From a virus: 39,670 nucleotides of DNA. The notes beneath the pieces are model-generated. The model was not told the origin of the DNA. It did not search any database and saw only the letters and a list, made by a program, of their open reading frames with translations. The stretch is taken from positions 1 through 39,670 of the IMG/VR virus record IMGVR_UViG_3300013286_000025; one strand, written 5' to 3'. A program made the translations under genes and the position numbers. Below, piece after piece: positions 3,726-35,700 of this stretch. The first letter of the stretch is position 1. Each line of letters opens with the position of its first letter.

Positions 3726-3998
3726 TTACTTCTTTGAGACGCCTGCGTTCACAAAGCCATACATTTTTTCTGCGGCTTCTAGGACTTTTTCTAAGCCTGG
3801 AAACTCTGGCATACCCACTTGGGTAACAATCTGTCCAGTCTTTTCATCTTTTGCCGCTGACATTTGCCATCCTGCAAACTTGACTTGATAGTCTTGCATG
3901 ACCACATCTTTGGCCATGGCCAGCACATCGCTACGAATCTCGTAGCCATTCTTGCTGAATTTAATTTCTGGTATTAGTTTTGGAGTGTAGTCTGACAT
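3726..3998 (-). CDS. Hypothetical conserved phage protein downstream of a phasin-like gene
   Basis: 90 residues, starting MSDYTPKLIPEIKFSKNGYE. The protein is hydrophilic and mixed alpha/beta, with a C-terminal helix (LEKVLEAAEKMYGFVNAG). Its ATG overlaps the upstream phasin-like stop by one base (TAATG), which implies translational coupling and a shared transcript. I cannot name a function. It is the last gene of the leftward run and is followed by the bidirectional terminator. Confidence 0.6.
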   Translation of the reverse strand: MSDYTPKLIPEIKFSKNGYEIRSDVLAMAKDVVMQDYQVKFAGWQMSAAKDEKTGQIVTQVGMPEFPGLEKVLEAAEKMYGFVNAGVSKK

Positions 3999-5446: not shown

Positions 5447-5710
5447 ATGATGCGTAAAAGTACCAGATCAATACTGCAAGAATTAAGTGACTTGGGCATA
5501 AGTCGTGACAAAGACCAAGTGATCGAAAGCCGTGGCGCCAATTTGATTGAGTCAGCTGTTAATTTGTTGTCTCTAATCCGAGAACAATACGATCCGGAAA
5601 CAGCTGCAGAATTAGAACGCCGTTTCATCAATGCTATTCGCACAGCCGAACCAGCCAAGTTTAAACGCGGCATGAAGAAAATACAAGAGAGTAAAAATGC
5701 ATCTATTTGA
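5447..5710 (+). CDS. Conserved phage protein of unknown function (MRKSTRSILQEL type)
   Basis: 87 residues if started at the ATG at 5447, which has AAGGA 6 nt upstream; the upstream TTG (5408) has no support. The protein is helical and charged: RSILQELSDLGISRDK, then GANLIESAVNLLSLIREQYD, then AAELERRFINAIRTAEPAKF and a basic end. I recognise similar proteins among the virion-assembly genes of T4-like marine phages but not a defined role. It overlaps the next gene by 14 nt. Confidence 0.6.
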   Translation: MMRKSTRSILQELSDLGISRDKDQVIESRGANLIESAVNLLSLIREQYDPETAAELERRFINAIRTAEPAKFKRGMKKIQESKNASI

Positions 5711-6554
5711 AGGCGGCAATATTTGGCCAGACACTAGCGAATATGAACAAACACCCGAAATGGTGGACGGGCTAGTCAACGCCACTGAAGAATATCTTAA
5801 AGAACTAGGGTTAGAGCTGCATGTGATCGGCAGCAGTTACAATCCCAAAGTTCCTGTTGCTATATCTGGAGATGTAATTGGATACCTGCACAGCGGTGTA
5901 TTTCACAGTACAGATAAAAAGTATTTGAATGGTAAGATGCCCGACGGTGCTGTGATGCACCCCAAAAAGTCCGGCGATCTAGATGTACAAACTGACTTGA
6001 CACAGGCCGCCGCTTATTTTAAAACACCCGATGCCAAAACTACAAAACAAGCACTAGATGACTTTTTACAAGCCAAAGGGCTAAACACCAAAAAAGCAGG
6101 TGTAACAGTACACACAAGAATTCCTTTCCAAGATAAATTTTATCAAGTTGATATCAAAGTCATACCCAAAGCAGGCAAAGTGGCCGCATTCCATCGACAC
6201 GACTTGCCTCATGGCAGTCCATATAAAGGTGTCAACAAACAAATGGTGTTGAACACTTTGGCCACTAGCCGAGGCTTTCTATGGAGTCCAGACGAAGGAT
6301 TGTATCAGCGTGATGCCATGGGCAAGAAGGGCGAGTTTTTAACAGATGAGCCTGACGAAATTGCAGGTTACTTGTTGAACAGAAAAGACGCCAGTGCAAT
6401 AGGCAGTGTTGAAAGCATCTTAGCTGCAATACCCAACGAAGCAGAGCGCAACGAAGTATTAGCCAAGGCCAAAGCCAGTGCCAGTTGGCAAGCTGCCACT
6501 CCCGATGTGGGCACTAATGAGTGGTTTGTAAGAACCATGCGTAAGCTGTCATAA
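5697..6554 (+). CDS. Nucleotidyltransferase-fold phage protein
   Basis: 285 residues. The motifs of the nucleotidyltransferase fold are present but spread out: IGSS (44-47), then SGDLDV (92-97) as the DxD metal pair, and VDIKV (151-155) with a third Asp. PYKGVNKQMVLNTLATSRG (about 215-235) matches the second conserved block of phage proteins of this type. A ~45-residue insertion separates the GS and DxD motifs. The C-terminal half is helical (ESILAAIPNEAERNEVLAKA). What it transfers, or whether it is active, is unknown. A second NTase-fold protein lies at 8007. Confidence 0.65.
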   Translation: MHLFEGGNIWPDTSEYEQTPEMVDGLVNATEEYLKELGLELHVIGSSYNPKVPVAISGDVIGYLHSGVFHSTDKKYLNGKMPDGAVMHPKKSGDLDVQTDLTQAAAYFKTPDAKTTKQALDDFLQAKGLNTKKAGVTVHTRIPFQDKFYQVDIKVIPKAGKVAAFHRHDLPHGSPYKGVNKQMVLNTLATSRGFLWSPDEGLYQRDAMGKKGEFLTDEPDEIAGYLLNRKDASAIGSVESILAAIPNEAERNEVLAKAKASASWQAATPDVGTNEWFVRTMRKLS

Positions 6555-6632
6555 GCAAGAGTTTTCAAGTGGCAAACCGCTGTATTAGTTCTATCTAATC
6601 TCCTAAAAATCCCCCAATTGAGCCCGTTTTTT

Positions 6633-6718
6633 TACCAAATTGGTAAATAATTATACAAAGGCCTACATGGGGTGGGCCGCTCATAGAGAATGAGCAAGAC
6701 ATACCGAGGAGATTTATT
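6633..6718 (+). promoter_or_regulatory. Structured 5' leader of the 6719 gene: palindrome, TAAATA, two hairpins, strong SD
   Basis: The 164-nt gap contains no gene. It holds a perfect palindrome TACCAAATTGGTA (6633-6645) running into TAAATA (6644-6649), then two adjacent hairpins: GGCCTA / TGGGCC (about 6660-6678) and GCTCAT-AGAGA-ATGAGC (6679-6695). GAGGAG (6707-6712) follows before the ATG at 6719. This resembles a stable leader of a highly expressed phage gene. Confidence 0.6.
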
Positions 6719-7051
6719 ATGTCAGCAACAACAAGAGTAAATGGTTCAGACTTTGCAGTCCGTAACTCATTAGTTTCAACAGTACAATTAAAAGCATTTT
6801 TGATCGACGCAGGCGGTTCATTGGCCGCTCAAACAGGCGTTGACGGTGCTATCGAAGCATTATTGCGTGAACTGCAGCCACAAATGTATTTTGTCGCTAA
6901 CGACACCAGCGGTGCATTGTCAGTGATCATGGACGGACACTGCCAAGATGCTACGGCTCTACAAGCTCGTATCGCTGCATTGGGCACAGTCAACGGTTAC
7001 AGCTTTGCTAGTGCAACAGTTACATTGGGTACAAGCCTAGTAGTAGCTTAA
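6719..7051 (+). CDS. Highly expressed-looking phage structural-type protein
   Basis: 110 residues, MSATTRVNGSDFAVRNSLVS, with an amphipathic helical middle (GVDGAIEALLRELQPQMYFV) and a beta-type C-terminus (ASATVTLGTSLVVA). It is a self-contained transcription unit: structured leader and TAAATA upstream, a near-consensus Shine-Dalgarno, and a strong terminator downstream. That architecture fits an abundant virion protein such as a decoration or head/tail subunit, although the sequence itself does not identify one. No enzyme motif or membrane segment. Confidence 0.6.
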   Translation: MSATTRVNGSDFAVRNSLVSTVQLKAFLIDAGGSLAAQTGVDGAIEALLRELQPQMYFVANDTSGALSVIMDGHCQDATALQARIAALGTVNGYSFASATVTLGTSLVVA

Positions 7052-7085
7052 TAGCAAGTTAATTCTCAGGGATGGGAAGCAGATT

Positions 7086-7108
7086 AGGACTCTTCGGAGT
7101 CCTTTTTT
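7086..7108 (+). terminator. Rho-independent terminator
   Basis: AGGACTC, UUCG-type tetraloop TTCG, GAGTCCT, then a run of six T. It closes the 6719-7051 unit. The stem sequence is the same as in the terminator at 3660. Confidence 0.93.
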
Positions 7109-7125
7109 GTTGGCGGTACGATCGG

Positions 7126-7163
7126 TAGACTTATTAATTAACTGAGTGTATAATGTCTAAATA
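7126..7163 (+). promoter_or_regulatory. Possible promoter pair: TATAAT and TAAATA just before the 7166 gene
   Basis: TAGACT (7126-7131), 17 bp, TATAAT (7149-7154), then TAAATA (7158-7163) only 2-5 nt before the tandem ATGs at 7166 and 7169. There is no Shine-Dalgarno. Confidence 0.45.
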
Positions 7164-7165
7164 CT

Positions 7166-7540
7166 ATGATGATTTACATTCTATACACCCTTGTTGATAT
7201 TACAGCTACCGGTCACTACAAATCTCGAAACGATTTAGAAAGACTACAGCAACAGAACTTTGATACCGTGATCCAGACTATAGGATTAAGCGGCAATGTT
7301 TACTACGAGGATGCTCCAAAAATAATCTCAGCAGATATATTTGGCAATCCCAAATACCGTTGTTGGTATTTTGAATGGCGCATGGAAATTGATCACTTGT
7401 TTGAACAAGACGGTGATGAAATCTACAAGCTAAAACAGCTATTTGAATATGTGCCTTTTATTGCAGGACTAACCGAATCTGCAACAGTTGACAAGCCCAT
7501 GTTCCGTTTAGGCAAGAACATAATATTTGACTGTAAGTAA
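7166..7540 (+). CDS. Conserved T4-like phage protein of unknown function
   Basis: 124 residues (122 if started at the second ATG, 7169). It opens with MMIYILYTLVDITATGHYKS, then a Gln-rich helix (DLERLQQQNFDTVIQTIGLS). A central YRCWYFEWRMEID segment and a late block (FIAGLTESATVDKPMF) follow. I recognise the YTLVDIT...QQNFDTVIQ...GL layout as a family common in T4-like marine phages, usually near head/neck genes, with no assigned function. There is no Shine-Dalgarno; a TAAATA hexamer abuts the start. Confidence 0.65.
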   Translation: MMIYILYTLVDITATGHYKSRNDLERLQQQNFDTVIQTIGLSGNVYYEDAPKIISADIFGNPKYRCWYFEWRMEIDHLFEQDGDEIYKLKQLFEYVPFIAGLTESATVDKPMFRLGKNIIFDCK

Positions 7541-7600
7541 TAAATAAACAGTAAAAGGCACACAGTAATCTATAGGCATTCAATCATACACTAGGCACAT

Positions 7601-7615
7601 GACTCGGAGCGAGTC
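7601..7615 (+). promoter_or_regulatory. Short hairpin in the 7541-7642 gap
   Basis: GACTCG-GAG-CGAGTC is a 6-bp stem with a 3-nt loop, followed by CTTGA, not a T-run, so it is a poor terminator. A TAAATA hexamer starts the gap (7541-7546) and a TTGGAG Shine-Dalgarno ends it. It may be a leader hairpin; no gene is seen in the gap. Confidence 0.4.
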
Positions 7616-7642
7616 CTTGACTTATCACATTGGAGAGCCCAG

Positions 7643-7990
7643 ATGGCCACAAAAGAAGCTGTAGCACAATTAGCCACACTGCCCGAGCGAGTAGCAGTGG
7701 TAGAAACCAAAATACAAGCAATAGAAGGAAAAATTGACGATCTCAAAGCAGATGTCAAAGACATGCATAACTGCTTGGACAACACTAGAGATTTGTTAGA
7801 CAAGAAGCTGAGCGCAATGAGCGATGCTAGCAACAAACAGCATGACGAAATCTTTCAAAAGATCAACAGCTTAGAAAAAATCAAAAGCAAAGTCACAATA
7901 TATGCCATGGTAGGATTGGCTTTTGCCGCTGGCACCGGGTGGATCAATGCTGTTAATTTTCCGCATATATTAAAGTTCCTAGGCTTGTAA
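7643..7990 (+). CDS. Coiled-coil membrane-anchored protein
   Basis: 115 residues. Residues 5-90 form a long heptad-like helix (AVVETKIQAIEGKIDDLKAD, then DLLDKKLSAMSDASNKQHDE and INSLEKIKSK). This is followed by one hydrophobic segment (VTIYAMVGLAFAAGTGWINA) and a short C-terminal tail (VNFPHILKFLGL). The layout resembles XhlA-type haemolysin/holin accessory proteins, but sequence motifs do not prove that. GGAG lies 12 nt before the ATG. A role at the host membrane is likely; the lysis link is inference. Confidence 0.6.
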   Translation: MATKEAVAQLATLPERVAVVETKIQAIEGKIDDLKADVKDMHNCLDNTRDLLDKKLSAMSDASNKQHDEIFQKINSLEKIKSKVTIYAMVGLAFAAGTGWINAVNFPHILKFLGL

Positions 7991-7996
7991 TTCTGT

Positions 7997-8002
7997 TAAA
8001 TA
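7997..8002 (+). promoter_or_regulatory. TAAATA element 4 nt before the 8007 start
   Basis: GTTAAATACAGA followed by ATG; no Shine-Dalgarno is present. One of the cases in which the hexamer abuts the start codon. Confidence 0.5.
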
Positions 8003-8006
8003 CAGA

Positions 8007-8696
8007 ATGCAGTTTACAGAACTATCAATTAATCCTCTAAGTCATAACACTGATCTCAATCCGGCTCTATGGCAGGGTAACCGTTTGCGCAAAGATGCCA
8101 GACACAAACTATTGCAAATTGCCAAACATTTTGCCAACTTCTTAAACACCCCAATCCGACTAAAAGACATCACTGTTAGCGGAAGCAACGCTGGCTACAA
8201 CTATAGTGAATACAGTGATATTGATCTACATCTAGTGGTTAACACATCACCTGCTCAAGCAGAACTGTTCACAGCCAAAAAGAATCAATACAATTTTACC
8301 TACAATATAAAGATAAACGGAGTACCGGTTGAGCTTTATGTACAGTCTGCAGATCAGCCACATCACTCAGCTGGCATTTACAGTGTACTCAACGATCATT
8401 GGATCAGCAAGCCAGACGCTACTGCTCCTGATGTCAGTATTCGAGATATTAGAAGTAAAACTCGCAACTATGCAGGACAAATCAATCAAGCTCTGCGCAG
8501 TGATGACTTACAAAAGGCCAAAGATACTATGGAAGAATTGCGTAGACTACGCAAAGCAGGGCTCGAGTCAAACGGTGAATCTAGTGTTGAGAATCTGGCA
8601 TTTAAACTGCTCAGAGCTCGAGGACAGATTGACAAACTCCATAAATACATAACTAAACTAGAAAGTGCTGAATTAAGCCTTGGGGAACAACAATGA
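8007..8696 (+). CDS. Nucleotidyltransferase-domain protein
   Basis: 229 residues. It shows a clear nucleotidyltransferase signature: SGSNAG (58-63) followed by YSDIDLHLVV (69-78) with the metal-binding Asp71 and Asp73, and a third acidic residue, Glu109, in VPVELYVQ. The C-terminal ~90 residues are helical and charged (LQKAKDTMEELRRLRKAGLE). The fold is shared by poly(A) polymerases, aminoglycoside nucleotidyltransferases and MNT-type antitoxin enzymes; the substrate cannot be told. Its stop overlaps the next ATG. It may be expressed from a leaderless message (TAAATA 4 nt upstream). Confidence 0.75.
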   Translation: MQFTELSINPLSHNTDLNPALWQGNRLRKDARHKLLQIAKHFANFLNTPIRLKDITVSGSNAGYNYSEYSDIDLHLVVNTSPAQAELFTAKKNQYNFTYNIKINGVPVELYVQSADQPHHSAGIYSVLNDHWISKPDATAPDVSIRDIRSKTRNYAGQINQALRSDDLQKAKDTMEELRRLRKAGLESNGESSVENLAFKLLRARGQIDKLHKYITKLESAELSLGEQQ

Positions 8697-9424
8697 AAAT
8701 TAATCATGTAATAAGCGAACAGAAAAAAGGCGTTAGAGCTGTCAAGCACAACAAGAAGCCACACGACCCTGCTGCTACCCACGCCAAGGCCAAAGAAAAA
8801 CTAGCCCCAATCAAGCCAATGGAATCACAAGGTGTAGCGGAGGCTTTCCAAAATGACGAATCTAATTTAATGTATAGATACGACAGCGCAAGCGGTAAAC
8901 TTAAACAACGAATGATTGACAATCACGATGAGCGTACTGCTCATCAACACGGTTATAGAGACAGTGTTGAAAGTGCTCTTAGAGTGGCTAATATTATCCG
9001 TAGCAAATTTGACTCTAGTAAGTTTATACAAAATATTGGCGGCAAATGGGTACCGGTAAATCCATTTGGTAGTGCCGATGATGTTGAAGAAGCGCAAGGC
9101 GATCCAATTGGTACAGTACAATCAGCTACCCCAGATGGTAAAGTGGCTATTAAAACTGACACTGGCGTAGTTACTACTGATAAAACAGCATTGCTTCCAG
9201 GAGCAACTCCGCAAGACCCACTACAGATGAAACCAGATGCTGCCGGTGATGCGTTAAAACCCGGCGCAAAAGTTGTTAGTGCCGCAGAAGACATACTACC
9301 TCCTCCAGCCGATAGTCAAAGTCCTATACACGGCGGGACAGTACACGGTGACGAAGGCCACGGCGATAACCACCATAATGAAATTATTCAATTGCTCAAG
9401 CGCCTAGCACATCGTGACGCCTAA
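8693..9424 (+). CDS. Hypothetical phage protein, probably virion/core-associated
   Basis: 243 residues. The N-terminus is basic and Lys-rich (HVISEQKKGVRAVKHNKKPH). A central stretch carries GVAEAF, a hallmark of a group of phage proteins that begin MKI...; then HQHGYRDSVESALRVANIIR. An acidic, Pro/Gly/His-rich C-terminus (HGGTVHGDEGHGDNHHNEII) follows. No catalytic motif. It overlaps the upstream NTase gene by 4 nt and belongs to a run of small virion-assembly-type genes up to 11302. His-rich clusters might bind metal, but this is inference. Confidence 0.5.
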   Translation: MKINHVISEQKKGVRAVKHNKKPHDPAATHAKAKEKLAPIKPMESQGVAEAFQNDESNLMYRYDSASGKLKQRMIDNHDERTAHQHGYRDSVESALRVANIIRSKFDSSKFIQNIGGKWVPVNPFGSADDVEEAQGDPIGTVQSATPDGKVAIKTDTGVVTTDKTALLPGATPQDPLQMKPDAAGDALKPGAKVVSAAEDILPPPADSQSPIHGGTVHGDEGHGDNHHNEIIQLLKRLAHRDA

Positions 9425-9425
9425 G

Positions 9426-9638
9426 ATGAAAATAACAGAAATTAATGACATCACTGTGTATGTGTCTAATGCCGAGAAAAAGATGTTAGACACTATACGC
9501 CGAGCAGGTCGTCCATTACACAGCTTTTCGGAACACGAACAGTTCATAATCGCCAGCCTAGTACGCAAAGATTTGGTAATTAAAGAGGGGGATATATATC
9601 CTCAAGTATTTGCCAATGAAAATAAAAAAACAAGCTGA
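9426..9638 (+). CDS. Small hypothetical phage protein
   Basis: 70 residues from the ATG at 9426 (MKITEINDITVYVSNAEKKM); a GTG at 9414 in the same frame is less likely because the MKITEI opening recurs in this phage group. Content: LDTIRRAGRPLHSFSEHEQF, IIASLVRKDLVIKEG, a helix-turn-helix-sized helical body that resembles winged-helix fragments, but no specific motif is provable. It overlaps the next gene by 23 nt. Confidence 0.5.
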   Translation: MKITEINDITVYVSNAEKKMLDTIRRAGRPLHSFSEHEQFIIASLVRKDLVIKEGDIYPQVFANENKKTS

Positions 9639-10047
9639 ACGATTAGAAACTTTTCTTGAAGATGAATTCAAGAAAAAAGTCCCATTGGCAGTGTTACCTG
9701 ACCGAAGCATAGTCTATAAAAGATTTAAAATATCACAAAACAAACAAAGTCAGTGGTGTTTACGCTATCTAGGCGGTTTTGATATAGACACATTTAGACT
9801 TAAGACAACAGCAGCCATTGCAGCCAAACATTACGATCGCAGTAGTCTAGTTAAATACAATGAAGTAAAACTTCTTGACACCAACTATTGGACTGCCGCA
9901 GTTGATGCTGAGATTTTCAAATACAGATACGACAACACAAAAGATTTTGACCGTAAAATGCTGTTTTTGTGCAGATGGGAACTTGCTCGCGATAAAGCCA
10001 ATCACTATAAAAGCGAAATAACCAGAATGTTCAAAGCGGCCTTTTGA
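9616..10047 (+). CDS. Hypothetical conserved phage protein
   Basis: 143 residues from the ATG at 9616 (MKIKKQAERLETFLEDEFKK). It is basic and helical, with a central VYKRFKISQNKQSQWCLRYL, then DIDTFRLKTTAAIAAKHYDR and a C-terminal helix rich in Arg/Lys. A nucleic-acid- or core-binding role would suit the charge, but I do not recognise the family. A TAAATA element follows its stop directly. Confidence 0.5.
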   Translation: MKIKKQAERLETFLEDEFKKKVPLAVLPDRSIVYKRFKISQNKQSQWCLRYLGGFDIDTFRLKTTAAIAAKHYDRSSLVKYNEVKLLDTNYWTAAVDAEIFKYRYDNTKDFDRKMLFLCRWELARDKANHYKSEITRMFKAAF

Positions 10048-10079: not shown

Positions 10080-10988
10080 ATGAACATCACAGAACTTTCA
10101 CATCCAAAAACAAGCAAGGCGCTGAACGAAAGCCTAGCTAAGAAATTTGGTTATAAATTAAACTTGGACAGTTTCACCATGGAACAACTGCAATCTGCTC
10201 GTGACAAGATCACAGCACAATTAGTTGCGTTCGAAACCAGTCAAAATTATGATGCTGTTTATGAAAACAACAGTTATCAAAAGGATCGCACATTGTTAGA
10301 TGTGATCACACAAGCAATTTCAGAGCGTACTCTAAGCCCAGGCGAAGAATCTAAGAAAGAAAAGTTTGTTAAAGGCATGAAGAAAAAGTCAGGCGAATTT
10401 AAAAAGCGTTATGGCGACAAAGGCGATGAAGTAATGAACGCCACAGCTACTAAAATGGCAAAGAAAGAAAGCATTGAAGAAGCAATGGGTGTACTACGCG
10501 ATGTACTTGCAGAAAGAACATTACTAGAAGGCGAAGAAGAAAAAGCCGCACTAATCATGAGTGCTAGAGACATGGTAGATAAACTTACCGGATGGTTAGA
10601 AGATGTGGCTTCATTAAAAGCAGAAACAATGCTCGAATTAGTAGACTCTATAAGAGACGAACTAGGCTCGCAGACCAGCACTCAGTTTGCAGAAAAAGTT
10701 AAACCAGCATTAGAAGAAGTATACACTTGTTTGGAAACAAACCGTCAGGCATTATCACAAGCAGTTGCTATCCTAACAGGCGAAGAAGCTCCGGGCATGG
10801 GCGCAGAAGGTGCTCCGGCCCCAGCTCCAAATGAGGCAACTCCGGGCGCAGAAGAATTTCCATCAGGCGATGCATTTGATGCAGCTGCTGCTGCGGCCGG
10901 TGGTACTGAAGAAGCAGGCCGCGAAAAGCGTGAGTCAGTGGAATACAGCCGCAGACTAGGCAACATACTAAGCTCAAAAAAAAAGTAA
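10080..10988 (+). CDS. Virion/prohead-core-type protein, zero-frame product of a probable frameshift gene
   Basis: 302 residues. Helical and charged throughout: MNITELSHPKTSKALNESLA, a conserved KFVKGMKKKSGEFKKRYGDK basic block near 98-117, VMNATATKMAKKE, then acidic helices. A Pro/Ala/Gly/Glu-rich linker (about 237-290) precedes the end RRLGNILSSKKK. Such proteins are seen as core or structural proteins in T4-like marine phages. The frame ends at TAA (10986) immediately after nine A and a G; a -1 slip there continues the protein for 105 residues (separate entries). The short and long forms probably share this N-terminus. Confidence 0.65.
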   Translation: MNITELSHPKTSKALNESLAKKFGYKLNLDSFTMEQLQSARDKITAQLVAFETSQNYDAVYENNSYQKDRTLLDVITQAISERTLSPGEESKKEKFVKGMKKKSGEFKKRYGDKGDEVMNATATKMAKKESIEEAMGVLRDVLAERTLLEGEEEKAALIMSARDMVDKLTGWLEDVASLKAETMLELVDSIRDELGSQTSTQFAEKVKPALEEVYTCLETNRQALSQAVAILTGEEAPGMGAEGAPAPAPNEATPGAEEFPSGDAFDAAAAAAGGTEEAGREKRESVEYSRRLGNILSSKKK

Positions 10989-11017
10989 ATGAGGGTGCGG
11001 ATAATCTTATCCGCACC
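10979..11017 (+). promoter_or_regulatory. Probable programmed -1 frameshift signal: A_AAA_AAG slippery site plus hairpin
   Basis: In the zero frame the bases at 10979-10985 read A AAA AAG, the canonical bacterial -1 heptamer used in dnaX. The stop TAA follows at once. After an 8-nt spacer comes a perfect hairpin: GGTGCGGATA (10994-11003), loop AATCT-type 4 nt, TATCCGCACC (11008-11017), 10 bp with no mismatch. No T-run follows, so it is not a terminator. The -1 frame is open for 105 codons and has no ATG, GTG or TTG near its start. Confidence 0.8.
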
Positions 11018-11302
11018 TTAACTGTTCTCAAAGCTAGAGCAGATTCAAAAAATCAAACAGCTACATACAGTTGGGATGCCGTTGGTAATATTCTAGATGG
11101 CAGCTTTGACTATGAAACATTCAAAGCTGAGTTTGATCAAATACCCGCACTAAAAAATCTAGTAAACAACTTTGACAGTCGTGGTATCACATTAAAAACC
11201 CGGGCCAAACCGGAACCTACAAAAGGTGCCGATGATGGTAAATCTGGGTTAGATGCTGGTGCAAAACGAGCCGCGAGCAAAACACTCAAACAACCCGGTT
11301 GA
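10985..11302 (+). CDS. -1-frame C-terminal extension of the 10080 protein
   Basis: From the slip point the -1 frame reads VNEGADNLIRTLTVLKARAD, an aromatic/acidic core (SWDAVGNILDGSFDYETFKA), IPALKNLVNNFDSRGITLKT and a Lys/Ala/Gly-rich tail ending TLKQPG. This is coherent protein sequence: the SFDYETFKAEFDQIPALKNL block looks like a small conserved phage domain. There is no in-frame start codon or Shine-Dalgarno, so it is most simply made as a 407-residue fusion. The alternative is a one-base error in the A9 run, which would make one continuous gene; the hairpin argues for regulation. Confidence 0.7.
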   Translation, partial: VNEGADNLIRTLTVLKARADSKNQTATYSWDAVGNILDGSFDYETFKAEFDQIPALKNLVNNFDSRGITLKTRAKPEPTKGADDGKSGLDAGAKRAASKTLKQPG

Positions 11303-14161: not shown

Positions 14162-16486
14162 ATGAGCAATATAACTGTAATCAAAAGAAATGGAAACAAA
14201 GAGCCACTAACAATTGAAAAGTGGCAGGCCCAGATCACAAAGGTCTGTCAAGGTACCGCCGATGTTAGCCAGAGCATGATTGAAATCAAAAGTCAGCCTC
14301 ATTTTTACGATGGCATTACGACTGAAGAAATTGACGAAATAACCTTACGAGCAATTGTTGATTTGATTGATGTAGAATCAAATCCAGATGTGGGGCATAC
14401 CAACTATCAATATGTGGCAGGCAAACAACGCTTGAGCATGTTGCGTAAGGATGTATACGGGTCTTATACGGTTCCTCACCTCTACACGATCGTAAAGAAG
14501 AATGTAGAAGTAGGATTATACACCGAAGAGTTACTGTCATGGTACACGGAAGACGATTGGAACAAGATGGATGCTATGTTGGATCATAGCAAAGATGAGC
14601 AATATGGATATGCCGCCATTGAGCAGTTGATTGAAAAATATCTTGTTAAAAATCGTGCTACCAAGGAAACTTATGAAACTCCACAAATTAGATACATGGT
14701 TGCGGCTGCCACAGTGTTTCACAAGGAAGAACCCAACTCGGCTCGTATGCGATATATCAAAGAATACTACAATGCTGCCAGTGATGGCCTATTCACACTG
14801 GCTACTCCTGTGCTTGCTGGTCTTGGTACTCCTACCAAACAATTTTCTAGCTGTGTGCTTATCCGCAGTGATGATGACCTTGACTCCATCTTTGCCAGTG
14901 GGGAAATGATGGCCAAGTATGCTAGCAAACGAGCTGGCATTGGCCTAGAGATTGGTCGACTGCGCCCATTGGGCAGTCCAATTCGCGGTGGCGAAATCAT
15001 GCATACTGGTATGATCCCATTCTTAAAGAAATGGTTTGGTGACCTGCGCAGTTGTAGTCAAGGAGGTATTCGTAATGCTAGTGCTACAGTATTTTATCCC
15101 ATTTGGCACCATCAGTTTGATGATCTTATTGTGCTTAAAAACAATCAAGGCACAGAAGAAACACGGGTTAGACACATGGACTATGGAGTTGTGTTATCCG
15201 CTTTTTTCTGGAGACGATTTAAAAACAAAGAAAACATAACTTTCTTTGATCCCAACCAAGTACCGGATTTGTACGAAGCGTTCTACAAGAACACACAACG
15301 GTTTGAAGAGTTGTATGTGAAATATGAAAAGCGCAAAGACCTACGTACTAAAACAATGAATGCAGAAGATGTATTCAAAGGTGGCATCTTAAAAGAACGC
15401 ACTGACACTGGACGCATTTATCTGGTGTTCATTGACAATGTGCAGAATCAAGGACCGTTCGATCCGGAGTACCACACCATTTATCAAAGTAACCTATGCT
15501 GTGAAATCTTATTACCTACTAAATCTTTTAAGCGTCTTGATGATGTGGACGGCCGTATTGCTCTTTGTACGCTCGGTTCGATCAACTGGGGAGCATTCCG
15601 TAATCCCGAAGATATGCGCCGTGCTTGCCGTATTTTACAGCGTAGTTTATGCAACATACTGGACTATCAGGACTTTTTAAGCATACAGAGTAAATTAAGT
15701 AATGATGAAATATCGCCATTAGGCATCGGTGTTACAAACCTAGCCTACTGGCACGCCAAACGCGGCCTTAAATATGGCGAGAAGGATGCACTGCAAGAAG
15801 TTAAATCATGGATGGAGCATCTTGCATTTTATCTAACAGAAGCAACTGTGGAATTAGCCAAGGAGCGTGGTGCTTGCACCCACAGCGAACACACACGATA
15901 TGGCAAAGGCATATTCCCTTGGGAACTGCGTGCCAAGGGTGTGAATGAACTGGCTGACTTTACTCCAGAACTGGATTGGGAAACACTTCGTGCCAACATG
16001 AAACAGTATGGAGTACGCAATGCAACACTCATGGCTGTTGCTCCTGTGGAGTCCAGCAGTGTTGTTATTAATTCAACAAACGGTATTGAAATGCCCATGA
16101 GCTTGATCAGTGTTAAGGAATCAAAGGCAGGTTCTTTTGTGCAAGTTGTGCCCGAATATCATAAACTCAAGAACAAGTATCAAATGATGTGGGAACAAAA
16201 AGACTGTGATGGTTACTTAAAGACAGCGGCTGTGATTGCGGCATATGTTGATCAGGCTATTTCTGTGAATACTTTTTATAACCCCGCACACTTTGCTGAT
16301 AGGAAAGTTCCCACAACATTGATTGCCAAGAACTTGATGCAAGCACATTTATGGGGCCTTAAGACCTTCTACTATAGCCTCGTGAATAAGCAAGGATCAA
16401 AATCTATTGATGAGACTCCGCCAGATATGCCACTTGAACAAATTAATTTTGATGACGAGGCCGATTGTGAGGCCTGCAAGCTCTAG
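14162..16486 (+). CDS. nrdA: Ribonucleoside-diphosphate reductase class I, alpha subunit
   Basis: 774 residues, full length. It has an N-terminal ATP-cone (ITVIKRNGNKEPLTIEKWQA). The active-site residues are in place: Cys231 (FSSCVLI) and Cys469 (ALCTLGSINW) as the redox pair, and Asn444-x-Cys446-x-Glu448 (SNLCCEILLP) as the radical site. The C-terminal CEAC pair (769, 772) allows re-reduction by thioredoxin or glutaredoxin. It reduces ribonucleotides to deoxyribonucleotides together with NrdB, which here is 6.5 kb away (23011), and a glutaredoxin follows NrdB. The presence of the ATP-cone suggests dATP control. It looks functional. Confidence 0.97.
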   Translation: MSNITVIKRNGNKEPLTIEKWQAQITKVCQGTADVSQSMIEIKSQPHFYDGITTEEIDEITLRAIVDLIDVESNPDVGHTNYQYVAGKQRLSMLRKDVYGSYTVPHLYTIVKKNVEVGLYTEELLSWYTEDDWNKMDAMLDHSKDEQYGYAAIEQLIEKYLVKNRATKETYETPQIRYMVAAATVFHKEEPNSARMRYIKEYYNAASDGLFTLATPVLAGLGTPTKQFSSCVLIRSDDDLDSIFASGEMMAKYASKRAGIGLEIGRLRPLGSPIRGGEIMHTGMIPFLKKWFGDLRSCSQGGIRNASATVFYPIWHHQFDDLIVLKNNQGTEETRVRHMDYGVVLSAFFWRRFKNKENITFFDPNQVPDLYEAFYKNTQRFEELYVKYEKRKDLRTKTMNAEDVFKGGILKERTDTGRIYLVFIDNVQNQGPFDPEYHTIYQSNLCCEILLPTKSFKRLDDVDGRIALCTLGSINWGAFRNPEDMRRACRILQRSLCNILDYQDFLSIQSKLSNDEISPLGIGVTNLAYWHAKRGLKYGEKDALQEVKSWMEHLAFYLTEATVELAKERGACTHSEHTRYGKGIFPWELRAKGVNELADFTPELDWETLRANMKQYGVRNATLMAVAPVESSSVVINSTNGIEMPMSLISVKESKAGSFVQVVPEYHKLKNKYQMMWEQKDCDGYLKTAAVIAAYVDQAISVNTFYNPAHFADRKVPTTLIAKNLMQAHLWGLKTFYYSLVNKQGSKSIDETPPDMPLEQINFDDEADCEACKL

Positions 16487-20094: not shown

Positions 20095-20394
20095 ATGAAA
20101 TCATTAGCGTTAGCAGCCGTAATGGCATTCGTATCCTTATCAGCATCAGCACAGAATGCTGAACTGGGCAAGGCCAAATATGCTACCTGTGCAGCCTGTC
20201 ACGGTGCAGCCGGACAAGGCGGAGCAGGACCAAAGCTGGCAGGCCAACGGCCTGAAGTGATTGTACAAAAACTCACAGCCTACAAAAACAAAGAACAGCG
20301 TGGACCACAAAGTCAACTCATGTGGGGCATGGCCGCAGGACTTTCAGCTGATGACATCAAGAACATTGCGGCCTACACAGCCACACTGAAGTGA
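20095..20394 (+). CDS. Class I cytochrome c, secreted
   Basis: 99 residues. A Sec signal peptide (MKSLALAAVMAFVSLSASA, cleavage after ASA) is followed by a mono-haem c domain: TCAACHGAAG with CXXCH at 32-36, and QLMWGMAAGLSADDIKNIAA with Met76 or Met79 as the sixth ligand. The end (GLSADDIKNIAAYTATL) matches the c553/c4-type C-terminal helix. It would act in the periplasm as a small electron carrier and needs the host's cytochrome c maturation. AAGGA lies upstream. Its stop overlaps the next ATG. Phage-encoded cytochrome c is unusual. Confidence 0.93.
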   Translation: MKSLALAAVMAFVSLSASAQNAELGKAKYATCAACHGAAGQGGAGPKLAGQRPEVIVQKLTAYKNKEQRGPQSQLMWGMAAGLSADDIKNIAAYTATLK

Positions 20395-20693
20395 AATACT
20401 TCTTAATCCTGGTTCTGTTTGTGGTAGGTCTTGTGGCGGCACAGTCCATCACAATACAAAAGCCTGTGGAATGTGCTGACACGGCCACACTGTTGCGAGG
20501 ACTGAGCGGCAGAGACTACAAGGAACGACCCATATGGTTTGGCATTGAACCTGAAGCCACTGTGTCGCGATACAGCCTGTTTGTCAACGAAGAAACCAAA
20601 ACATGGACCTTGATTCAGTTTGATAAAGACATGGCCTGTGTGTTGGGCACAGGTGAAAACAGTACTAGAATATTTACAGGACCCAAGATATGA
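20391..20693 (+). CDS. Secreted hypothetical protein
   Basis: 100 residues with a signal peptide (MKYFLILVLFVVGLVAA). Two Cys in the mature part (ECADTATLLRG, MACVLGTGE) could form a disulphide. TKTWTLIQFDKDMACVLGTG is a layout I have seen in secreted proteins of freshwater phages, without function. It overlaps cytochrome c upstream and COQ7 downstream by 4 nt, so it is made with them. Confidence 0.6.
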   Translation: MKYFLILVLFVVGLVAAQSITIQKPVECADTATLLRGLSGRDYKERPIWFGIEPEATVSRYSLFVNEETKTWTLIQFDKDMACVLGTGENSTRIFTGPKI

Positions 20694-21223
20694 ACACACA
20701 TCCTGACTCCAAATACATAGAGCAGGAACTGAGATCAGATCATGCTGGTGAAGTTGGTGCTGTGGAGATTTATCGTGGTATCAAGGCCGTGGCTCTGTGG
20801 CGTGGTGACCATGAACTCATGCAGTTTGCAGATGAGCACGGTAGTGTAGAGCAGAAACATTTGACCATGATGAACCAGCTGGTGTCAGTAGATGATCGCA
20901 GTAGGCTAGAAACACCTTGGCGAGTAGCAGGTTGGCTCACAGGTGCTGTGCCTGCCTTGTTTGGTCGTAATACTGTGTATGCCACTATTGCCGCAGTGGA
21001 AACTTTTGTGGACCAGCATTATCAGCAACAGATTGATCAGTTGAGTGAGTATTCCGACCACAATGCAATCACTTCGGTGCTGATCAAGTGTCAAGCAGAT
21101 GAAGTTCATCACAGAGACGATGCTGGCAGTAGAGTGACAAGCACCAATCTCTTGTTGAGAACATGGTGTGGCATGATTGGTGTGGGTAGCAAGATAGCAG
21201 TGGCCATTTGCCGCAAAATATAG
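20690..21223 (+). CDS. coq7: COQ7-type demethoxyubiquinone hydroxylase
   Basis: 177 residues. The di-iron ligands of COQ7 are all present: Glu21 (DHAGEVGAVEIYRG), Glu54-x-x-His57 (VEQKH), Glu104 (AVETFVDQHY) and Glu138-x-x-His141 (DEVHH). The family adds the last ring hydroxyl in ubiquinone synthesis, using O2, at the inner membrane. The length is a little shorter than many bacterial homologues but the core is complete. It sits between a secreted protein and a small membrane peptide in the host-like operon. It probably acts on host ubiquinone precursors; the effect on infection is unknown. Confidence 0.93.
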   Translation: MNTHPDSKYIEQELRSDHAGEVGAVEIYRGIKAVALWRGDHELMQFADEHGSVEQKHLTMMNQLVSVDDRSRLETPWRVAGWLTGAVPALFGRNTVYATIAAVETFVDQHYQQQIDQLSEYSDHNAITSVLIKCQADEVHHRDDAGSRVTSTNLLLRTWCGMIGVGSKIAVAICRKI

Positions 21224-21239
21224 TAATTAAGGAAATAAA

Positions 21240-21374
21240 ATGAAAGAACTATTAAAAGCGTTTGTATTTTGCATGATTGGAATGACCTTGTGTTTTGTTC
21301 CTATACTTTATAAAAATCATTGGACTGTTCAGATGAATGGTCACCCAGTGAAACTATTCGGAGTTGAAAAATGA
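21240..21374 (+). CDS. Single-pass membrane peptide (44 aa)
   Basis: MKELLKAFVFCMIGMTLCFV is hydrophobic; the C-terminus ends KLFGVEK. AAGGA precedes the ATG and its stop overlaps DoxX. Although not otherwise like the NERI proteins, it ends on the same FGVE-coding sequence that supplies GGAG to the next gene. Confidence 0.6.
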   Translation: MKELLKAFVFCMIGMTLCFVPILYKNHWTVQMNGHPVKLFGVEK

Positions 21375-21835
21375 CAAACATATTTAAAAACTATTGGCAA
21401 CGACTACCAGACTTTGACTGGAGTCACATCCTACTGAGGATTCCCTTGGCCTTGGTGTTTATCACACAAGGTCTAAGCAAGATGCCATTTGATCCTGCTG
21501 TGGGTGCGGGCTTTGGTCTTCCACCCTTGGTATGGTTCTTTGTGTGCTTCGGTGAACTGGCCGCTGGTGTGGGTCTATTGGCAGGCGGATTAGCCACACT
21601 GCCACGCATTAGAGATAATCATATTGTAGCAGTGTTAGGCGATATGTTGACCCGCTTCAGTGGCATTGTGATGTCGTGTATTGCCACTGGTGTTATCTGG
21701 ACCGTGATTAAACCCGAAAGTCTACTGGCTTTTATTGTCACTGATTACCTACACTTTAGCCTTTGGGCAGGTGGCTTGTATTTTGCTCTGCGTGGCAACT
21801 GGGCTGTGAGTGTTCAGAAACAAGGCCAAATATGA
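21371..21835 (+). CDS. DoxX-family membrane protein
   Basis: 154 residues and four predicted transmembrane segments. ILLRIPLALVFITQGLSKMP at residues ~20-39 matches the DoxX R-x-x-x-G...F...G..K pattern; later segments are VWFFVCFGELAAGVGLLAGG, FSGIVMSCIATGVIWTVI and LWAGGLYFAL. DoxX-type proteins are inner-membrane and some are subunits of thiosulphate:quinone oxidoreductase or associate with superoxide detoxification; the family is broad. Together with cytochrome c and COQ7 it suggests a link to quinone-dependent electron flow. ATGA-type overlaps on both sides. Confidence 0.8.
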   Translation: MTNIFKNYWQRLPDFDWSHILLRIPLALVFITQGLSKMPFDPAVGAGFGLPPLVWFFVCFGELAAGVGLLAGGLATLPRIRDNHIVAVLGDMLTRFSGIVMSCIATGVIWTVIKPESLLAFIVTDYLHFSLWAGGLYFALRGNWAVSVQKQGQI

Positions 21836-22769: not shown

Positions 22770-23014
22770 TGGAAAATAAGCGGTTTGCGTGGTGGCCTAC
22801 CACGATGACCAGCGGAAAACTGATTTGGCTTAAATACTACTACCAACACAAAAGTCTATATGATGAATCAACTGGCAGACCGCCGTTGACCAGCTTGTAC
22901 TTTGAGTGGACAGAAACACCCCAAGAAAAAACTTGGAGATTATTAAAGAACAGTGTTGTACACAATAGAAATGTGTGGAACACTACAGAATTGACAAAAC
23001 AGGACACACTATGA
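22769..23014 (+). CDS. Conserved phage protein before nrdB
   Basis: 81 residues: ENKRFAWWPTTMTSGKLIWL, KYYYQHKSLYDESTGRPPLT, SLYFEWTETPQEKTW. The WWPTxMTSGKxIWL...YYD.....GRPP motif is common in T4-like marine phages next to DNA-metabolism genes; no function known. Its stop overlaps the nrdB start (ATGA). Confidence 0.6.
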   Translation: MENKRFAWWPTTMTSGKLIWLKYYYQHKSLYDESTGRPPLTSLYFEWTETPQEKTWRLLKNSVVHNRNVWNTTELTKQDTL

Positions 23015-24111
23015 GCACTGCCCAATACAATTTAAAGACAAAAACAGATTACCTTGGTCGCAAAATGTTTCTGGACCCAGCAGGTCCAGTTACTATCCAA
23101 CGCTTTGAAGAAGTCAAATACAAAAAGATTGCAGACTTTGACGCCACCGCTCGAGGTTTCTTTTGGCAACCCGAGGAAGTGAGTCTTACCAAAGATTCAA
23201 ATGACTTCAAAGAAGCAAGTGATGCTGTCAAGCACATCTTTACCAGCAATCTACTGCGTCAAACAGCATTGGACAGTTTGCAAGGTCGTGGACCAACACA
23301 GGTATTCACTCCTGTATGCAGTTTGCCCGAAGTGGAGGCATTGATGTACAACTGGGGCTTCTTTGAAACTAACATTCACTCAAAAAGCTACAGTCACATT
23401 ATCCGCAACATATATAATGTGCCCAAGGATGTGTTCAACACAATTCACGACACAGAAGAAATTGTGGGTATGGCGTCAAGTGTAGGAAAATATTATGATA
23501 ATTTACATCTAATTAATTGTCGTAAAGAAACAGGTGAATTCATTTCCGAAGACGAACATATCAAAGCAATCTGGATGGCACTGCATGCTAGTTATGCGTT
23601 AGAGGCGTTCCGTTTTATGGTTAGCTTTGCTACTAGTTTAGCCATGGTAGAGAACAAGATCTTTATTGGTAACGGCAACATTATCAGTTTGATCCTACAA
23701 GATGAACTGCTACACAAAGGCTGGACTGCTTACTTGATCAACCAAGTGGTCAAAGAAGATCCACGCTTTGCTAACGCCAAACTTGATTGTGAACAAGAAG
23801 TGTACAATCTTTACATGGATGTTATCCGAGAAGAAAAAGACTGGGCAGTATACTTGTTTAAGAAAGGCCCTGTAATTGGACTAAATGCAAATATTCTAAA
23901 AGATTTTGTAGATTACACAGCGGTAGGTGCATTAAAGGATATCGGTATCAAGTATCAACATCCTGCTCCTAAAAACACACCTATTCCGTGGTTTAATAAA
24001 CATACGGATACAAGTAAAAAACAAACAGCATTACAAGAAAACGAAAGTACTAATTATGTTATCGGTGTGATGTCCGATTCAATTGACTATGACGAGCTGC
24101 CGGCTCTATAA
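23011..24111 (+). CDS. nrdB: Ribonucleoside-diphosphate reductase class I, beta subunit
   Basis: 366 residues from the ATG at 23011; the upstream frame to 22975 has no support. Metal and radical residues are present: Asp88 (ALDSLQGRGP), Glu119, His123, the radical Tyr127 (IHSKSYSHI), Glu214 (LAMVENK), Glu232 and His235 (QDELLHKG). Compared with E. coli, one residue is inserted between Glu119 and His123 (E-TNI-H instead of E-TI-H). It provides the tyrosyl radical to NrdA. The gene is separated from nrdA by the host-like operon. No Shine-Dalgarno; it is coupled to the previous gene. Confidence 0.95.
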   Translation: MSTAQYNLKTKTDYLGRKMFLDPAGPVTIQRFEEVKYKKIADFDATARGFFWQPEEVSLTKDSNDFKEASDAVKHIFTSNLLRQTALDSLQGRGPTQVFTPVCSLPEVEALMYNWGFFETNIHSKSYSHIIRNIYNVPKDVFNTIHDTEEIVGMASSVGKYYDNLHLINCRKETGEFISEDEHIKAIWMALHASYALEAFRFMVSFATSLAMVENKIFIGNGNIISLILQDELLHKGWTAYLINQVVKEDPRFANAKLDCEQEVYNLYMDVIREEKDWAVYLFKKGPVIGLNANILKDFVDYTAVGALKDIGIKYQHPAPKNTPIPWFNKHTDTSKKQTALQENESTNYVIGVMSDSIDYDELPAL

Positions 24112-29719: not shown

Positions 29720-32700
29720 ATGCCAGTCTTGGGAACATTAGGTGCAATGACAGCAAAGGGGGTAGGCTTTACTGCCGTCTCTGCAAAACCTCCAGGTGCA
29801 CCGACCATGGGGACAGCTACGGTTATTTCCACACCGAACGCTTTAGTCACTACTACTTATGACATACCTTACGGCACAAACTTTCTACAACAAGTTGATC
29901 TATTAGTTCCTGATAGTACAATAAAAGGTGTAATCATGCACATACACGGCGGCGGCTGGACCGGCGGATCAAAGAGCGCCAGCGGGTTTACACCGAGCCA
30001 GGCCGCGTACACCGTCAATGATGATGCAGAGGTACAGCTAGTCGCACAAGCCGGATATGTTGTTATAAATTGTAACTATCGACTAGTTTCTCAGGCAGCC
30101 TATGGATATGGCGGCGACGGCACTGGCGGCTATCCTAACTCGATTAATGATATACAAACAATATTACAGTATTGTTTGGTCAGTGGCGCAGGAGATAGTC
30201 AAAGTCCTTATTGGTCTACAATATATAACTATGTTAATACTTACGGACTAATGGTAACTGGAACTAGTGCCGGAGGCCATTTAGCAGTTATGGGAGTAGG
30301 CAACTACGGAACAAGCTCTGGTAACTGGCCTAGGTCCGTTGGCAATTGTTGTGGACCAATGGATATAACATTTAATGGTGCAGAGAATCCGGCAGCAGTT
30401 CCACAACAACAATTGGCCAATGCATTTGCAGTACCCGGTGATCCTAGTGGTAATACTGTTAATCTTGCAAATTTAAAAGCCAGCAGTCCTAGATATCAAT
30501 ATTATTATGACGGCGTTCAAGGTCCTTGGTATACAGCATTAAACGCATCTTCATGTAAATTTTACTTTATACAAAACAATAATGATACATTGGTCAACAA
30601 TACAATGGTGTTGCCTTTTATTAATAGTTTACCTGTTGCTAAACACAATTTAGAATTGGTCACAGAGGGCACAATTACGCTTGGAGTATATGATCATAAT
30701 TACACTACTTCTTTGTCTGCACACATATTAGATTTTGCTAATCATACATTTTCTATCACAGCAGTTGGCAGTGCCGCTATTACATATACAGCACCTGCAG
30801 ACGATGGTGGCGCCGCAATAGTTTATTATCAAGCAACAGCCTATCAGTCAAGCGTGTCAACTGGTATCACCGGACGGAAATATGGTTCAGGAAACGGAAC
30901 TGTGAATGTATCAGGACTGGGATTGAGCACAGCATACACATTTAAAGTGCTGGCTCATAATTCTGCACTTGACAGCGCATTGAGTGGATTTAGCAACAGC
31001 ATAACAACCTATACTACACCCGGTGTTCCAACAATTGGCTCAGTGACCTACACAAATGGACCAACCGCTAGTGTGGCATTTACTGCTCCTGGAAGCAATG
31101 GTGGCAGTGCAATAACTGGATATACTGTATTAGGGTTTATTGGAGGGGTACAAGTAGCAGTATACAAAATCTCAACAACTAGCCCCGTAACAGTGAATGG
31201 ATTAATTGGGGGACAAAGTTACACCTTCAAAGTTTATGCTACTACAGCCGTTGGAAACAGTGCAGTGAGTTCTGCTACTAGCCCGGCTATTTCAGTAATT
31301 ACATCTCCTTACCAACCAACTGGTATTTTGGTCACTAACACCAGTGTTTCTACCTCGTCAGTTGCCACTGCCAATATAACATTCACTGCTCCGGCCAATA
31401 ATGGAGGTAGTGCCATTACCAGCTATACTGTAACTGCCTATACAGCATCTAATGATTCTACCACCGGATTAACTGCCAGCGGTACTCCTGCTGGTGCAAC
31501 ATTTAGCGGATTGTCCAAAGGCGTAGCATATACATTTAGAGTCACTGCTACTAACACTGTTGGTACTAGTATATATAGTGCCCCAAGTAGTTCGATAACT
31601 CTAACAACTGCGCCCGGTGCTCCTACTATTGGAATTATCTACGCTACTAGTGGAACCAGTATGTCTGTTCCATTTACTGCACCAACAGACACAGGAGGTG
31701 TTACTATTACCAGATACACCGCAGTATCAACACCTGGTAATATTACAAATTATATAAGTCAAGCCGGCAGTGGAACTATACCGATTACTGGGCTAACCAA
31801 AGGTACTGCTTATACATTTGTTGTGTATGCAACTAACAGTATTGGTAATAGTGCAAATTCAAACACCAGTAATAGTATTACTCCGGCAGACGCTCCAAAT
31901 GCACCTACTATAACATCGGTAACAACACCTACTACTAATACAGGAACTACAGGTTCAGTTACAGTTAACTATACCGCACCATTAGACAATGGCGGCGCTG
32001 TCATCACTAGTTATACAGCAACTAGTAGTCCCGGTAGTTTGACCAACACAGTGACCACAGCACTGGGAGGCGCTATCACCGTCACCGGATTGACCAAAGG
32101 CACTGCTTATACCTTTACAGTATATGCAACTAATCGAATTGGCAATGGTGTTAATTCGAATACTAGCGATTCGATTACACCAAGAACAAAACCTAGTATA
32201 CCAACAATCGGCACAGCAATTCCTACCGGTGTAAATTCAGTAAGTGTGGCATTTACACCTAGTACAGACAACGGTGGTGTCAGCCTTACATTGCTTTATA
32301 GTGCAACTGCCTACAATCAACCTTCTGCCACTAAAACATTATCGGTTTCTAGTGGGACAACTAGTCCAATTAGCATTGGTGGATTGACTCAAGGTGCTCA
32401 ATACTCATTTACAGTATATGCCACAAACCAGATAGGCGATACTGTTGAAAGCAGTTTGAGTAATATTGTTTACACATGGGATATCCCGGGTACGCCTACT
32501 ATCGGTACTCCAACATATTCTACAGCCTATGTAAGTACCACTACATCAGTGACTGTTCCGTTAACATCGGCAGTTATCAATACCAACATACCTAACTTGA
32601 CTTACGGTGCTGAGGCATATTTAAACAGTAACAGTAGTGATACTAATATTGGCGGAACTACTTTCACAAGTCCACAAACAGTAGCATCCACTAGCAGTCA

Positions 32701-35700
32701 GGCATCGTCTGTTACAGTTAATGGACTAACTAAAGGCATCGCATACAAGTTTAAAGTTTATAGTGTTAACACAGTTGGCACAAGTACCTATAGTGGGTTC
32801 AGCACAGCAGTTACACCCGTAACAGTGCCAAATGCACCAACCATTGGTACTCCTACTACTTCTAATGTGTACACATCAGATGGACGAGTAACTGTGTATT
32901 TTACAGCACCCATTGACACCGGCGGACTTGTGGTAGACCAATATTATGTGCTATCATCTCCAGGAAGCCTAACAAACACAGGGTCGTCAAGTCCTGTCAT
33001 AGTATCGGGGTTGACCAAAGGCACTGCCTACACTTTCCAAGTTCGTGCATCGAATACCGCCGGATCAACTTACGGCGCATATAGTACATCAAGTACCAGT
33101 ATCACCCCAATTACTAGACCAACTGCACCTGCCAGTGCATCCGCAACTGCATTATCTGGAACCACTGCATCTATCAGCATAGGTTCCCCTAGTGACACCG
33201 GTGGTAGAAGTATTACTAATTATTTTGTAACTACTGTAGTTAGTAACACCACTGGTGGTCCTTACGCTGATGCAGCACTTGAGTTTACCAGCACTACTAA
33301 TACGATATCAGTAACTGGGTTGACTAATGGCAAATATTATAAATTTACAGTGTATGCTACCAATTCTATTCCTGCAGATGGCGCAACTGTCTATGGAGCA
33401 AGTGTTGATAGTAACGAGATAAACCCAGCTGATGTTCCTAGTTCACCAAGTATTACAAATATTGTGCAATATCCAAGTTATACTACTGACGGTAGAATCA
33501 ATGCCACAGTAAGTACTCCGTACAACGGTGGCGCTGTTATTGATTTATACACAGTAAGTGATGGGTTGGGCCATAGTGGAACTCGAGCAAGTGCCATCGG
33601 CGGAACTATTACAGTTACAGGACTAAACAAAGGATCCTTGTATAGTTTTACAGCCACAGCTCGTAATAGAATTGGGTATAGTAATCCCAGTGCAGGTTAT
33701 TCTTTTACACCGTTATCTGTGCCAGGGGCGCCGTCGTTAGGTACCCCTACTTTTGTTGCCACTGTGGGAGTATCAACTGCTAGTGTCAGCATACTTGTCA
33801 GCACTCTAGATAATGGCGGATCGGCAATTACTAGTTATTCGGCAACTAGCAGTCCCGGCGGATTTACAGGATCACTAACAGCATCAACTGGTACTATTAC
33901 TATAACAGGACTAAACAAAGGCACTGCTTATACTTTCAGTGTGACTGCGACCAATGCTCAGGGAACCGGTAGCGCAGCAATTTCTAGTTCAGTTACTCCG
34001 GCCAGCGCACCTAATGCTCCAACCAGTGTGACTGCTACAAAAACTTTAGACAGTACCACTGCCAGTTTGACTTGGACTGCTCCTAGTGACACCGGTGGTA
34101 CTGGCGTATCAATTACCAGTTACACAATTACTGACAATTACGGAGTACAAACTACATCATCTACCACTAGTAAATCTTTATCTAATCTAACAGCAGGGTC
34201 CAGCTATTATTGGACTGTGACTGCTACAAACAGTTCTAGTTTGACCAGTGCTGCCGGAACCAGTAATACAATTGTTTTGCCTGCTTACTTTGTTGGCGTA
34301 AGCCCTACCAGTGTAAACGAAACAACTAACAATTTTGTTGCAGTGACATTGACTACTAGTAATGTTACTGACGGTACGACAATATACTGGACAACGACTG
34401 GCTCAGCTGGGCCGGCTGATTTTGTTGATCTAGTATCTAGTGGTTCAGTAACAATATCAAGTGGCTCCGCACTAGTATCAAGATCAATTTTGGCAGATCA
34501 TTTGACTGAGGGCGGCGAAAGTTTTCAAATTCAATTTAGGATCAATTCAACCAGCGGTACTGTACAGGTTACATCAAGTTTGATATCAATTGCTGACACA
34601 TCACTGACCTACGGCGTAATAACTTTCTCATCAGCTAGTAACACAGTTAATGTACCAAAGTCTAGTATTAGTGCATATACTAGTTCAGGATCGTTTGTGG
34701 TTACCATGTCTAGTGGCACCGTTGGAACTGTAACTATAGGTTATTCTGGTAACGGTTCAACTGTTATAACTCCTTCAAGTTTTACTTTTACCTATGTTGG
34801 CCAAACTCAAACTGTTTCCTATACAGTAACTACTCCGGTGGGTGTATCAGCCGAGACGAGTTATCTCACTATTTTTGCTGGCGGCATCAGTACAGGAAGT
34901 GGATTGAGTAATCCAAATCATACTTTAACGCAAAACAGAATTGCTTATACAGAAGATATAACTGTAAGCCCGACTAGTGGTTATACTACAAGTACATTTA
35001 CCTATACTGTCAAAGGCGCCCCGGGTACACAAATAGTCACTTGGGATTCAGCTAACGGGTATGCAAACAGGGTAACTAATACATTATCAGGTAGTCAAGG
35101 TGACGCCGGCTATGGAACTTTTACAGCTAGTGGTGTATATTGGATCTCACCCGGAACATATGGTGTATTTGTATATTGGACAACCACAGGTGATGGAGAC
35201 TCTAGTGGTGGATATAGTGCCGGCAATGCTATACATACCTATGCAGCCGTAACAGTAACCTATCCGCCATTGGTAGTATCATCAAATCAAGGTACCGGCT
35301 TGTTAGGACAAGTTGGTTCTTCTTTTTCAGGTAACAATAGTTCATACTATCCTAGTCAGTACACTAATATTAGTACAACTGGCGGCAGTGGCACAGGTTA
35401 TACCTATGCAGTAACATCGGGCTCACTACCTCCTGGATTATCATTATCAGGTACGGGCGCTTTGGCTGGACTTATTACCGGTACACCTACGGTCAGTAGC
35501 TTTTATTCAGTGACGATAACTGCAACTGATAGTGTTGGTACTACAGGTACAATATCACTTAGTTTTGCCATTGTAGCAGCACCTACCATATCGTCGTCTT
35601 CTTTGAGCAGTGCGCCAATAAGCGGAACAAACTATGTTGTAGGCAGTGCGCCAACTGTAACTTGGACATCAACCGGAACTAGTGCTGTTGGTATTACTGT

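Follow-up and report, generated by a model that had tools for sequence, protein, structure and literature searches.

The closest described precedents for slippage at a run of A come from two bacterial genes. In E. coli dnaX, a hairpin follows the heptamer A_AAA_AAG, which is among the most efficient slippery motifs of E. coli (PMC4066793). In Thermus dnaX, nine A allow one gene to yield two products by transcriptional slippage; runs of nine A or T slip efficiently in bacteria (PMC5009743), and runs of more than seven A are the usual signature of the transcriptional process (PMC3711429). Among phages, gene 10 of T7/T3, Lactobacillus phage A2 and the lambda G-GT pair provide examples of a protein with a minor, C-terminally extended form, and in the Gag-Pol systems of retroviruses and totiviruses a further domain is appended by a -1 shift where a structural gene ends. 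With respect to delivery into the head, the internal proteins of T4 carry capsid targeting sequences of 10-19 residues, and its protease gp21 cuts after L/I-X-E (PMC9026906).

The locus considered here lies in a 39,670-nt stretch of viral DNA from IMG/VR record IMGVR_UViG_3300013286_000025 (the window), and shares features with each of these systems. Like E. coli dnaX it has the heptamer followed by a hairpin, but its run is A9, it is devoid of a conserved Shine-Dalgarno (SD)-like stimulator, and its shift lengthens the product whereas that of dnaX shortens it. With Thermus dnaX it shares the nine A and the derivation of two products from one gene; however, it differs in having a conserved AAG, a shift that is always -1 and a hairpin downstream, all of which favour the ribosome. 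Unlike the T7/T3, A2 and lambda cases, the upstream protein (the core) is neither a major capsid protein nor a tail chaperone, and the extension is free-standing in some relatives and follows a protease-like motif. As in Gag-Pol, a structural gene ends in a -1 shift that appends a domain beside a putative cleavage site, though this is a DNA phage without the polymerase, and its packaging and cleavage steps are putative. Finally, the core resembles the T4 internal proteins in its short N-terminus ending in (L/I)xE and in the presence of a genome-encoded gp21-type protease, but here one protein would carry its partner by frameshift, and the likeness is one of motif rather than of sequence homology.

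Organization of the locus

The core frame ends TCA AAA AAA AAG TAA, i.e., on nine A, a G and the stop, exactly as the preliminary description had reported. The features, all on the plus strand, are as follows:

10080-10988 (+): core gene in the 0-frame, 302 residues, all-helical; PHROG 14154 (virion structural protein)
10080-10130 (+): putative capsid-targeting N-terminus MNITELSHPKTSKALNE; LNE falls at residue 16-17 in each of the 173 distinct N-termini
10521-10529 (+): LLE(G) motif preceding a conserved helical domain; second putative prohead-protease site
10976-10985 (+): slippery tract AAAAAAAAAG, comprising the A-run (10976-10984) and G (10985), with the heptamer A_AAA_AAG at 10979-10985
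10986-10988 (+): 0-frame stop TAA, read from the sequence
10985-11302 (+): -1 frame extension, 105 residues, without a start codon of its own, ending in TGA (11300-11302)
10985-10993 (+): first -1 frame codons, V-N-E; conserved [VLI]xE junction motif and putative cleavage site
10994-11003 (+): 5' arm of the hairpin, GGTGCGGATA, 8 nt past the heptamer and perfectly paired with the 3' arm
11008-11017 (+): 3' arm of the hairpin, TATCCGCACC, in perfect 10-bp pairing with the 5' arm

The A9 is the sole A/T run of eight or more within the 39.7-kb window. The -1 frame is indeed open for 105 codons with no start of its own, as ATG, GTG and TTG are all absent from them. An ATG of the -1 frame overlapping the stop (TAATG) belongs to some relatives and not to the window, which corrects an earlier note.

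Conservation of the slippery run among relatives

IMG/VR searches recovered relatives numbering at least in the hundreds, in each of which the core and extension were located by profile. They constitute a widespread frameshift family, spread over hundreds of contigs from freshwater to marine environments, in large, T4-related, uncultured phages. The family is almost without cultured relatives, and ordinary gene calling splits or loses its second protein. When the window's core was compared by tblastn with 50,697 phage records, this cultured collection yielded no relatives; a marine core gave one weak match, in Sinorhizobium phage Phosso, the neighbours of which are all hypothetical except one.

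Comparison of relatives, along the lines that the preliminary description had proposed, shows the slippery run to be retained in most of them. Among 221 distinct sequences classified, drawn from the IMG/VR matches listed, in 193 the extension is in the -1 frame relative to the core, with a run of A8-A10 at the overlap, in 27 it is an independent gene starting at an ATG, and in one (L151) the run comprises 11 A (its positions 3948-3958), which alters the frame relation and is either a real variant or an assembly error. The direction of the shift is -1 in all 193. One of these, L160, was considered as a minimal A6G site and rejected, as an A9G is present about 30 nt upstream. With L160 left out, merging of near-copies gave 145 frameshift clusters, counts of which lack phylogenetic independence; 127 have A9, 12 have A10 and six have A8, and an in-phase A_AAA_AAG, A_AAA_AAA or A_AAA_AAC heptamer is present in every one. 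The stop falls 0-13 nt past the run in these clusters and about 30 nt past it in L160, and this variation indicates that the conserved element is the run and not the stop.

Further, the homologous extension domain is found in the -1 frame of relatives at identities down to about 22%, and dN/dS is nearly identical in the extension (0.142) and the core (0.137), indicating equal purifying selection, as expected of -1 frame coding sequence. The extension alignment is too diverged for pattern search. Searches of Pfam with the core and extension yielded nothing above cut-off, and PDB profile searches nothing convincing. A structure search with the extension recovered a few uncharacterised phage proteins along with weak winged-helix-like matches (E above 0.1), neither being given weight as functional evidence.

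The downstream hairpin

The perfect 10-bp hairpin 8 nt past the heptamer was confirmed, and it behaves as a structure under selection: 300 synonymous recodings of the -1 frame all fold less stably than the native sequence (z = -5.8). In the window's clade, 91.7% of hairpin pairs are kept and both sides have changed at five of the ten pairs, with coordinated replacements in the arms such as GCG/CGC, TCG/CGA and ACG/CGT; the covariation score was reached by none of 500 shuffles. More broadly, 92 of the 145 clusters are more stable than synonymous recodings of their own -1 frame (p<=0.05); this holds for 25 of the 26 window-like clusters and for fewer of those in the marine groups, where the hairpin is weak or without clear form in many members. 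Upstream, SD-like 4-mers precede the heptamer in only eight of the 145 clusters. Hence, the dnaX geometry ascribed to the site in the preliminary description holds for the heptamer, spacer and hairpin, but not for the SD-like stimulator, the A9 found in place of A6G, or the many marine relatives with a weak or absent hairpin.

The arrangement is more than chance because the A9 is the only A/T run of such length in the window, the native fold is more stable than that of every recoding, and the whole recurs in 193 distinct relatives. On these comparisons it is close to certain that some form of frameshifted product arises at the A9G tract. Conservation, covariation and purifying selection give good support to programmed -1 frameshifting and to the predicted pair of 302- and 407-residue products, and comparison strongly indicates that the longer of these is a core-extension fusion. 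Most ribosomes would terminate at the TAA to give the 302-residue core, while a fraction would slip back one base on A_AAA_AAG to give the 407-residue fusion, with the hairpin probably assisting in the window's clade.

The core protein and a possible packaging role

The virion location suggested for the core at the outset is plausible, with 30 of 31 relatives matching PHROG 14154, annotated as virion structural protein. The accompanying suggestion of a core or scaffold role is not supported: the core gene lies about 200 kb from the capsid gene cluster, and there a typical gp22-like gene sits between the protease and capsid genes. An identity with the T4 scaffold gp22 was therefore rejected, this separate gp22-like gene encoding 362 residues. 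The neighbourhood of the core gene instead includes tail-fibre-like, exonuclease and ribonucleotide reductase genes.

Several observations are consistent with the core being an internal head protein. Its N-terminus follows the pattern MxIxEL...LNE, a (L/I)xE-ending segment within the 10-19 residue range. Peptidase_S77 (PF03420) was detected in four of four large records searched, which also hold the core (the window itself being a fragment); in the large relatives a gp21-type protease gene is located near the portal, gp22-like and gp23-like genes, and their gp23-like proteins bear L(A/S/V)E at about residue 41. Additionally, the 364-kb relative G001 has 369 ORFs, of which 13 carry targeting-like N-termini against 0.6 expected; these include the core and two neighbouring genes. 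In the window, small genes upstream of the core (5697-10047), several with targeting-like starts (MKINHVISE, MHLFE, MQFTE), form a cluster homologous to G001 291845-298484, possibly a store of injected proteins.

At the junction, [VLIFM]xE occurs within 16 residues past the lysines in 144 of 145 clusters as compared with 6% of background windows, usually with A, G, S, D or T as the next residue, and it persists where the stop is shifted. The commonest first residue is V, unlike the L/I of T4 gp21 sites, and where V comes directly past the run, the overlapping TAA (GTA) in part dictates it. In relatives with a separate extension gene, the extension itself starts with a targeting-like peptide (e.g., MKVSEILKE, MKVFELYE, MRVSDIILE). 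The core fusion with its junction motif, taken with these starts, suggests that the extension travels on the core or else bears a targeting-like peptide of its own. In three relatives (L087, L101 and L102), the variable linker of the core carries inserted segments, some of them cysteine-rich and some flanked by IDEG- or VKEG-like motifs; these look like cassette exchange between putative cleavage sites.

In a T4-related phage, then, the core could be an internal head protein that its N-terminus directs to the capsid. The fusion might bring the extension domain into the prohead in minor quantity, where the gp21-type protease could free the domain by cutting at the [VLI]xE just past the junction, a release that would parallel that of Pol after Gag-Pol frameshifting. 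As a whole, the best explanation, with a probability of roughly 0.72, would be a programmed -1 site providing a core-borne extension that is packaged and then cleaved. Judged by itself, the packaging and cleavage role of the fusion is a tentative proposal, standing slightly below even odds. More speculatively still, the locus could be a DNA phage counterpart of Gag-Pol, in which lineages losing the frameshift gave the extension its own capsid-targeting peptide. A literature search found no paper linking frameshifting with capsid targeting. Should packaging be correct, phages and retroviruses would have come independently to one solution for controlling the ratio in which a minor protein is packaged, and injected proteins of uncultured jumbo phages could be predicted from the short capsid-targeting motif.

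The strongest competing view accepts the frameshift but leaves the core unpackaged, with [VLI]xE acting as a fixed linker or degradation signal and the fusion having an ordinary cytoplasmic role. The company of tail-fibre-like, exonuclease and ribonucleotide reductase genes would suit it, as would an extension domain whose winged-helix-like fold matches are weak. It is nevertheless unlikely, given the PHROG 14154 match of 30 of 31 relatives and the targeting-like N-termini on the core, its neighbours and the separate extensions.

Ribosomal versus transcriptional slippage

Codon choice around the run bears on which machinery slips. AAG serves as the third lysine codon in 127 of 139 clusters, yet AAA makes up 65% of core lysine codons; this retention of AAG fits ribosomal slippage on A_AAA_AAG. 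The serine codon before the lysines is TCA in 120 of 128, as against a TCA usage of 63% among TCN codons, which implies selection for a run of nine, beyond what the heptamer needs, and suits transcriptional slippage. In the latter process RNA polymerase would stutter on the A9, such that some mRNAs gain one A and place the extension in frame. This would also account for the run of 8-10 A in every classified frameshift cluster (nine in 127 of 145), a universal minimum of eight exceeding the needs of the heptamer; the 11 A of L151, the efficiency of A/T nine-mers in bacteria, as in Thermus dnaX (PMC5009743), and the status of runs above seven A as the usual signature (PMC3711429) point the same way. 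Against this, the direction is invariably -1, the third lysine stays AAG though AAA would extend the run, and a covarying hairpin downstream, untranscribed at that moment, is not expected to affect RNA polymerase. Transcriptional slippage as the explanation is improbable and the frameshift is probably mainly ribosomal, although both processes may contribute, the transcriptional adding to the ribosomal.

Relatives with a separate extension gene

The 27 relatives with a separate extension gene provide a natural experiment: the same domain is made by frameshift or from its own gene, and the parts of the signal can be compared with broken versions. The extension there begins with an ATG, in most cases accompanied by an SD-like AAGGA or AGGAT, and the A-run is broken. 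Some of their cores keep the three lysines as AAG AAG AAG (e.g., TCA AAG AAG AAG TAA), and lysine in their last eight codons is AAG 18 times and AAA three times. The preliminary description had held that a separate extension gene in relatives would count against frameshifting; such relatives do exist, but they are a minority and have lost the run, and this loss supports the function of the slippery signal. These lineages also show that the fusion is dispensable. The tree, being unrooted and so open to either direction, has five changes of state, at least four on well supported branches, and two relatives (L279 and L281) look intermediate, with the A9G running into an overlapping GTG start. In L087, L089 and L093, a GGATAC...GTATCC inverted repeat lies at the start of the separate extension; its loop contains the ATG and its stem an SD-like GGA, and it may couple extension translation to core termination.

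The 27 relatives speak for two independent genes as an alternative, and TAATG or GTGA overlaps in some frameshift-type relatives (L003, L017, L279, L281) might permit translation of the extension from its own start or by reinitiation past the stop. For the window this is strongly disfavoured: its 105 extension codons are free of ATG, GTG and TTG, 56 of the 145 clusters likewise have none in their first 30 codons, and the A-run is kept where a start is absent and lost where one is present. A sequencing error, to which homopolymers are prone, or a real indel in the A-run that split one continuous gene is refuted as a general explanation: across many metagenomes, 193 distinct relatives show the same split with varying stop distances, and the extension dN/dS is 0.14.

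Other features of the window

A cluster at 20095-21835 encodes a cytochrome c, a COQ7-like ubiquinone biosynthesis protein and a DoxX-like protein, and could represent auxiliary metabolic genes or a misassembled bacterial stretch. The large and small subunit genes of ribonucleotide reductase are well apart in the window (14162-16486 and 22975-24111), and in G001 just a short gene lies between them. An open reading frame of 2474 residues occupies 29720-37144.
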